Part shown: positions 10,152 through 11,759 of the stretch, piece after piece | How positions within the stretch are numbered: position 1 is the first letter of the stretch | Layout: the number at the start of each line of letters is the position of its first letter | NCBI GenBank assembly: GCA_903825645.1 | Contig: CAIKBL010000080.1 | Coordinates: 1 to 64,000 of the forward strand | Reading direction: 5' to 3' | DNA from: an uncultured Pseudomonadota bacterium | GTDB lineage: Bacteria > Pseudomonadota > Gammaproteobacteria > Ga0077536 | DNA: 64,000 bases | Program-made: the position numbers and the translations under genes | Notes under the pieces: model-generated | What the model saw: only the letters and a program-made list of their open reading frames with translations | The model's database searches: none | Told to the model about the DNA's origin: nothing

Positions 10152-10862
10152 TCAGACCTTGACCGAGAAAAATCCGCCTTTCTGTGACGTAAACTCTGCG
10201 GCAACAAGCGAACCGTGGATGACATAACGACCGCCGGCTCCCCGTACTAAAGTAACGCGGGCGACCGCCGCAAGCAGCGGCGAGTCGATCTTGATGATTT
10301 GGTTGACCCGCGGCGCAAATTCGCTGGCCAGACAAATCCCACTACGCGACAAATTTTGCAGCTGAGCCCGGTATCCCTCATGCGGCCAATGCGGGTAAAC
10401 CATAAGGCCTCCGGTCTTGGCAATACGGGGCGCGGCACGCCGCCCAAACACCTCTTGCTGGCCTCGCCCTGCTGCGCGCCTAGCCAGCGGCATGGGACTG
10501 GCGCAGCAGCGACAGCGATGCGGCGCACCCGCCAGCAGTCCCGTCGACGTATCGCAGAATAGACAAATTTCTCGCGATTCGTACGGCCCCGCTCTTAATG
10601 GTTGCACATACATGGCCGGCGATGCTGTGGCGCGGAGCCGTTGTGGACTGCTATGGGAGCCCCGGTCGTAGCGCGCGCGCTGTTCCGGATCACTCAACAC
10701 GGCATAGGCTTCATTAATGAGCACCGCGGCCTCATGGTCGCCGCCAAGGTCGGGATGTGCCTTGAGTGTGAGCATCAACCCGCGATAACTCGCCTTGATA
10801 ATTTCGAGCGGGGCGTCGGGCTGGATGTGCAAAATTCGATAGTAGTTACGACGGTTCTTCAT
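10152..10862 (-). CDS. DnaJ-domain / PilZ-domain fusion protein
   Basis: A 236-residue protein with an unusual domain pair. Residues 5-68 are a J domain (YYRILHIQ..., HPD at 36-38, then AYAVLSDPEQRARYD) that would stimulate a DnaK-type ATPase. A middle segment has two cysteine pairs (CLFC and CRCC), which could hold a metal. Residues about 130-230 look like PilZ: RAAPR (RxxxR) followed by NLSRSGICLAS (the [D/N]-x-S-x-x-G element), the two c-di-GMP contacts of canonical PilZ domains. The start has only a weak ribosome site. The design suggests a co-chaperone whose activity or partner choice responds to cyclic di-GMP. Confidence 0.75.
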   Translation of the reverse strand: MKNRRNYYRILHIQPDAPLEIIKASYRGLMLTLKAHPDLGGDHEAAVLINEAYAVLSDPEQRARYDRGSHSSPQRLRATASPAMYVQPLRAGPYESREICLFCDTSTGLLAGAPHRCRCCASPMPLARRAAGRGQQEVFGRRAAPRIAKTGGLMVYPHWPHEGYRAQLQNLSRSGICLASEFAPRVNQIIKIDSPLLAAVARVTLVRGAGGRYVIHGSLVAAEFTSQKGGFFSVKV

Positions 10863-11759
10863 TGTCTCGGGGGGGCATCACTCCAACTTCACAGGCACCG
10901 TCTTAATCTTCGGGCGTCGCTAGCATCGTCGCGCAATAAGGTCCTCTTCTATTTCGGCACCGGGAGCCGCCTACTTGAACAGCAGCGGACTGCTCTCTTA
11001 ACCTGCCAGCGCAACGCTTGTTCAATGGACGGCGCGGACAAACTGACGGAAATACCCCGCGCTTTGAGACACATCAGACATAGCTGATGCAGAGCAGGCA
11101 GAATCCCATCAGGCAGCGACTCAGTAATGACCTGCTCTGCACAGGTAATCACTTATTGGACAGCCCGGAGACGTCAGCTGCCCGCTCAAGTCCCGACTGA
11201 GTTGCTGATTCGGTGGGTCTTTCTATGGTGCCCGGGGCCACACGGACCATTAAGCCGACCCGTGTTTTTTGTATGCCCGGCGCATTCCAGGCGCCCCATC
11301 TCCCCGCACCAACATCTTCGGGGGGCGACGGAATATCCGCGCAAATAAAATGAAATCCCGCAGGCCGAAGCACAGTACCGGTCAAATACCGTCTCTGACA
11401 CCTTGCTTGCGCAACTTTGTTTTATTTCGCTGATTAAGGTCATCAGCGTCAACTAAGGCGTTTTACCTACGCAAAATGGTCCGACCGGCTGGCTATCGGG
11501 AGGGGCTGAACGGCATTACTGAAAGGAGGAGTGTGTTGTTCTAATCCATTGGTATCGTTACCGCCGCGATCAGAATGTCGATAATCGCCACCACGGTGAT
11601 ACGGTCGAAAGATGTTCTCTTTGTTATCCAAATGTGCAGTGCTATCGGGCTGCTAACAGATGAGAGACGATCAAGGAAAGCGGAAGGCGGCGAAATCATC
11701 AATCAAACTGGCAGCAGATTCACCTAGGCGAAATCTGGATGAGACACATGGTGAGACGT
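10863..11759. other. Long gene-free stretch
   Basis: About 900 bp with no supported gene. A minus-strand frame of 67 codons (10949-11152) has protein-like composition but no ribosome site. An aaaggagga sequence at 11521-11529 is followed by no long frame. Confidence 0.4.

Follow-up and report, generated by a model that had tools for sequence, protein, structure and literature searches.

Could a single small bacterial protein couple the Hsp70 machinery to cyclic di-GMP (c-di-GMP)? The question is raised by a gene in the window, by which we mean the whole 64,000-nucleotide stretch analysed here, from an uncultured Pseudomonadota bacterium (contig CAIKBL010000080.1). An earlier note on this DNA had read the gene as a J domain joined to a PilZ domain through a segment with cysteine pairs, and had listed an HPD tripeptide, CxxC-like pairs, and both RxxxR and NxSxxG elements. 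That architecture is borne out by the exact open reading frame, the Pfam match to the J domain, conservation across a family, and the predicted fold; every listed motif is present in the window protein and kept in its relatives. The cysteine pairs read C100-L-F-C103 and C117-R-C-C120, the RxxxR element is R142-AAP-R146, and the NxSxxG element is N170-L-S172-RS-G175. Coordinates are collected in Table 1.

Table 1. Features of the J-PilZ gene and its product, in window coordinates. Counts refer to the 40-sequence family alignment; Z scores are from VIA-align.
Feature	Position	Strand	Support
Whole gene, 236 aa, J domain - cysteine segment - PilZ	10152..10862	(-)	ATG start; full-length relatives exist
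J domain, residues 6-66	10665..10847	(-)	Pfam DnaJ 1.1e-13; predicted helices; match to CbpA J domain, Z 11.8
HPD tripeptide, residues 36-38	10749..10757	(-)	40/40 aligned sequences
CxxC-x13-CxxC, residues 100-120, probable zinc ribbon	10503..10565	(-)	Four Cys in 38/40; weak Pfam double zinc ribbon
PilZ domain, residues 141-231	10170..10442	(-)	Sub-cut-off Pfam match; family profile retrieves true PilZ proteins; predicted barrel resembles VCA0042
RxxxR c-di-GMP motif, R142-R146	10425..10439	(-)	39/40 aligned sequences
NxSxxG c-di-GMP motif, residues 170-175, mostly DxSxxG in relatives	10338..10355	(-)	39/40 with D or N, S, G

A class C J protein with a probable zinc ribbon

The family set of 40 sequences comprises 25 loci found by full-length similarity, 14 found by a profile of the cysteine segment plus the PilZ part (the Zn+PilZ profile), and the window protein itself; in three of the 14 (L147, L155, and L157) the N-terminus is shortened by the start rule used. 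The window protein scores 51.5 bits against Pfam family DnaJ (PF00226), whose cut-off is 27.8, and all 40 sequences match that model at E <= 1.7e-4. A search of Pfam with the window protein up to E 10 returns only DnaJ and PilZ, with no match to the DnaJ C-terminal domains or to the domains of DnaK. The CxxCxGxG repeats of class A are likewise absent from the window protein, which has a single CxxC...CxxC segment without GxG. Because it lacks both the class A/B C-terminal domains and these repeats, we assign the window protein to the class C J proteins.

An AlphaFold2 model built from 26 sequences has a mean pLDDT of 78.5 and a pTM of 0.53. The J part is modeled with confidence as helices at residues 7-10, 19-34, 43-57, and 59-69, and the HPD tripeptide sits between the second and third of these. 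It aligns to the DnaK-bound J domain 5nro_B with a Z score of 9.3 over 61 residues, a score that the CbpA J domain exceeds (Table 1). Ten residues separate position 26, a Tyr in 37 of the sequences, from HPD in all 40. This spacing exceeds by two residues that of the five best-aligned PDB J domains, where the known structures show a gap, and the contact with DnaK may therefore differ.

The linker from the J domain to the first cysteine runs from 19 to 65 residues in the 36 family members that lack a second J-like domain. Given such variable length, the J domain seems to be tethered. In four of the 14 profile-found relatives (L148, L151, L152, and L155), another J-like domain, this one lacking HPD, follows the J domain and precedes the cysteine segment. 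All four cysteines of the two CxxC knuckles are kept except in two members (L056 and L060). The Pfam double zinc ribbon model matches weakly in 7 of 26 sequences, with a best E value of 0.0081, and on this sequence evidence the segment is probably a zinc ribbon.

The C-terminal part is a PilZ domain at the level of the family

Against Pfam PilZ (PF07238), the window protein scores 15.5 bits (E 0.022, residues 141-201), below the cut-off of 22.5, and a PF07238 search of its genome at E <= 0.001 finds six other PilZ places without this one among them. The Pfam cut-off sets a limit of detection and does not describe the fold. Family sequences match the same model in 25 of 26 cases at E <= 1 and in 21 of 40 at E <= 1.7e-4, a threshold close to the curated cut-off; the best value is 1.6e-7. 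The family profile (A3) retrieves standalone PilZ proteins with E values down to 3.8e-9; ten of these PilZ-only proteins were scanned, from the 15 loci L158-L172, and all ten score above the Pfam PilZ cut-off. The earlier note had made its reading depend on domain models recognizing this region. They do so for about half of the family, and for the window protein taken alone they fall short of the curated cut-off, which goes halfway to the refutation that the note had set out.

The model is also confident in the PilZ part, whose strands lie between residues 152 and 224. The predicted barrel (residues 147-223) superimposes on VCA0042 with bound c-di-GMP (2rde_A) with a Z score of 10.8 and an rmsd of 1.9 over 75 residues; PA0012 (Z 9.7) and MapZ (Z 8.6), both with c-di-GMP, and BcsA also match the PilZ part of the model. 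Three stretches are of low confidence, namely residues 73-92, 129-145 (which includes R142), and 232-236. Without ligand, known PilZ proteins have a flexible RxxxR loop. A Foldseek search of the PDB at E <= 0.001 gave 16 matches, of which one was BcsA with c-di-GMP (9.1e-4) and the other 15 were J-domain chains, including four kinase chimeras and three chains in respiratory complexes. A common fold by itself shows no function.

The notion that the C-terminal part is something other than PilZ, its motifs being chance matches, could draw on the weak score of the window protein and on a profile search of PDB sequences that ranks PilZ chains first (eight of nine listed chains are c-di-GMP PilZ proteins) at E values of only 0.32 to 1.8, which alone are not significant, but it is practically refuted by the family's Pfam matches, the standalone proteins that its profile retrieves, and the predicted fold match. 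The motifs are more than chance, since relatives keep them. On the sequence evidence of the family as a whole, the C-terminal part is a PilZ domain.

The ligand residues are the best-kept columns

The 40-sequence alignment has a mean column identity of 30%, with mean pairwise identities of 62% for the J domain against 28% for PilZ. The one exception to the arginine pair carries a Q (L061), as does the one exception to the second motif (L049), so that both PilZ motifs stand in 38 sequences. N replaces the usual D at position 170 in two of the 40, the window protein included. Across residues 136-236, the six best-kept columns are G229, G175, S172, R146, R142, and D170. R142, R146, D170, S172, and G175 are the positions known from PilZ structures to hold c-di-GMP; G229 is part of a C-terminal G-x-F-V-S element that the family shares. 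Our best argument for selection on ligand binding is that five of the six best-kept C-terminal columns are ligand residues. Distances among J domains and among PilZ parts are correlated (Mantel r 0.34, with none of 9999 permutations as high), a figure to which close relatives contribute.

Distribution and gene neighborhoods

Among 58 genomes searched, full-length relatives occur in the window's genome and four others (G002, G005, G006, and G010), at 43-52% identity. Named genome records supply relatives at 25 loci (L037-L061), four of which (L037, L038, L042, and L058) are the same genes as in those four genomes. Record titles include Klebsiella pneumoniae, Gemmatimonadetes, Syntrophobacter, Caldithrix, Sulfopaludibacter, Acidobacteria, and Nitrospirae (L037, L039, L043, L048, L050, L059, and L060). 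Some metagenome record names are therefore wrong, or their contigs mis-binned, because L037 corresponds to G002, which belongs to the same genus as the window's genome.

With the Zn+PilZ profile, the complete module is recovered at 74-147 bits from at least 15 of 369 genomes searched in the class; this is a lower bound, as it covers the best first-pass candidates of each genome, at most 11. Below these scores comes a gap, and then matches to the PilZ part only, at 37.7 bits and lower. The window's genome apart, all 14 genomes that carry the module encode a J domain with HPD ahead of it and in frame: the two travel together. Within the window's genus the distribution is patchy, with the gene carried by G002 and G005 and no full-length match found in G001, G003, and G004, which are 90-100% complete. 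In a search of 398 genomes of the phylum, with an unspecified share of them outside the class, a match at 1e-12 was found only in the window's genome and in one other of the same class (G355).

Clustering by blastp of open reading frames of at least 90 aa around the 25 related loci and the window revealed no operon partner. Apart from the family itself, what recurs, at scattered places, are antisense shadow reading frames, short-chain dehydrogenases (seven loci), and ABC ATPases (five), with cluster family names assigned by eye. GGDEF domains are encoded in each of the 19 J-PilZ-bearing genomes searched, with 15 matches in the window's genome, and in 8 of 14 control genomes; as GGDEF is common, we regard its presence as a consistency check only.

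A short J protein close to the window J domain is encoded in three genomes of the same taxonomic family (G014, G019, and G020), which have no Zn+PilZ match at E <= 0.001. In the J-domain tree the three short proteins, which could have lost the C-terminal part, group together (92/87) among the long ones, and most forks are weakly supported. Short J proteins of the same type at loci L012, L013, and L014, about 120-145 aa long, end in a W-Q-x-F-x-P tail and have no PilZ; their genomes, of the same taxonomic family, are without the long form. Matches at eleven viral loci lie in the J domain or just past it, ending by query residue 102 and short of PilZ, and none of 71 matching plasmid records covers more than 80% of the query. 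On plasmid pKV1 (L184, 1480-2403), an annotated J domain-containing protein two genes downstream of the anti-phage gene ppl aligns to query residues 5-156 at 31.6% identity.

Relation to described proteins

In its barrel fold and similar motif region the PilZ part is like the receptors VCA0042, BcsA, Alg44, and PA0012, which presumably have other partner domains or none, and no J domain. The earlier note had added that it knew of no described protein of this kind. This stands in so far as a search of the open-licence literature found no paper on a J-zinc ribbon-PilZ family, although domain databases may list the architecture, and it gives way in that fusions of PilZ to Hsp70 components are on record from Myxococcus xanthus. 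According to the available text of one paper, four of the 24 PilZ proteins of that species carry a DnaK or DnaJ domain (PMC8316039). Those with DnaJ are the nearest described architecture, likened to the window protein by domain content alone, and the same available text reports no function for them (PMC8316039). Within that literature, as far as its available text goes, this is the only paper on PilZ and DnaJ that bears on a fusion; the available parts of a paper on acidophile proteostasis (PMC10490939) and another on Leptospira (PMC12943098) mention PilZ and chaperones, and no such fusion.

CsdK1 and CsdK2 of M. xanthus are PilZ-DnaK chaperones for which a link between c-di-GMP and chaperones has been proposed, to go by the portion of the report available (PMC10313047). 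The window protein resembles them in fusing PilZ to a part of the Hsp70 machinery, but their PilZ domain sits on DnaK itself, whereas here it is on a J domain with a cysteine segment between (PMC10313047, available part). Across the open-licence literature searched, in the text available, a c-di-GMP-Hsp70 link is on record only from Myxococcus. AtcJ of Shewanella oneidensis is, in the accessible text of its report, a comparable case, a class C J protein with a dedicated role and a C-terminal part specific to its partner; it has 94 aa, a 21-residue tail that binds AtcC, and an operon with atcA, atcB, and atcC (PMC6715715). Unlike AtcJ, the window protein has 236 aa, a PilZ domain, and no conserved operon. 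Membership in the AtcJ family was considered and rejected, as the NCBIfam cold-adaptation J model NF050028 scores 15.9 bits against a cut-off of 150 and conserved neighbors are absent. We are dealing, then, with a conserved, uncharacterised family whose architecture is undescribed in the open-licence literature searched, and whose novelty is lowered by the M. xanthus precedent.

A proposed function

Judged from family conservation, the likeliest function is that of a c-di-GMP-responsive co-chaperone, and we lean, by a modest measure, toward a class C J-domain co-chaperone in which c-di-GMP sets either the activity or the choice of partner. DnaK would be recruited by the J domain, and its ATPase triggered through HPD, while the cysteine segment, as a small zinc ribbon, would dock a client or keep the two domains in register. 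The PilZ barrel would bind c-di-GMP through R142 and R146 together with N170, S172, and G175. Binding might order the loop between zinc ribbon and barrel (residues 129-145, where model confidence is low), and the ordered loop could then expose or move a client-binding surface, such that DnaK would act on a particular client only at high signal, or only at low. Since the J domain seems tethered and ligand sensing would lie in a separate domain, targeting fits better than direct inhibition. Against a co-chaperone set by c-di-GMP stand the PilZ score of the window protein below the Pfam cut-off, its N for the usual D in the second motif, the longer spacing before HPD, the existence of PilZ proteins that bind no c-di-GMP despite intact motifs, and the lack of a conserved neighbor to hint at a client.

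Two other readings start from the same domains. The J domain may instead serve the PilZ part, the protein being a c-di-GMP effector directed at a pathway partner, with DnaK only remodeling, disassembling, or turning over the effector-partner complex. The conservation of both domains suits this, and in the available text on M. xanthus the PilZ-DnaK chaperones enable accumulation of the PilZ protein CdbS, so that chaperones do act on c-di-GMP effectors (PMC10313047); but no partner gene is conserved beside the J-PilZ gene, and sequence cannot separate this reading, which we consider unlikely, from a c-di-GMP-set co-chaperone. Slightly less likely still, in our judgment, is a PilZ domain that serves only as a docking module without c-di-GMP binding, on what is otherwise an ordinary class C J protein with a single client to deliver. 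The weak Pfam score would suit it, and there are known PilZ proteins that fail to bind although their motifs are intact, PlpA of M. xanthus being one so reported (PMC8316039, available text). It is disfavored by the ligand residues being the best-kept columns: at a mean identity of 28%, 38 of the 40 sequences retain both motifs, which would be unexpected had binding been lost.

Returning to the c-di-GMP-responsive co-chaperone, the J-PilZ protein may tie protein folding to the decision whether to swim or settle, much as the earlier note had supposed. Tentatively, and with somewhat more doubt than confidence, we suggest a gammaproteobacterial, perhaps wider, family of J-domain proteins through which c-di-GMP directly switches DnaK onto specific clients. 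Second messengers act on enzymes, transcription, flagella, and secretion; if the suggestion is true, one would also control which proteins fold, disassemble, or are degraded as cells move between motile and sessile life. In a small, conserved single-gene family whose ligand residues are the best-kept, the question is tractable in vitro with one protein plus DnaK and GrpE.

Other features of the window

A perfect 11-bp inverted repeat, TGCAGAGCAGG / CCTGCTCTGCA, with its arms 32 nt apart, lies at 11088-11141, about 225 bp upstream of the J-PilZ start codon. Near the start of the window, two adjoining open reading frames (4-888 and 975-2165) are similar to each other. The second looks, by our own assumption, like a STAS-type anti-sigma antagonist joined to an aminoglycoside-phosphotransferase-like kinase, and the first presumably like the kinase part alone.
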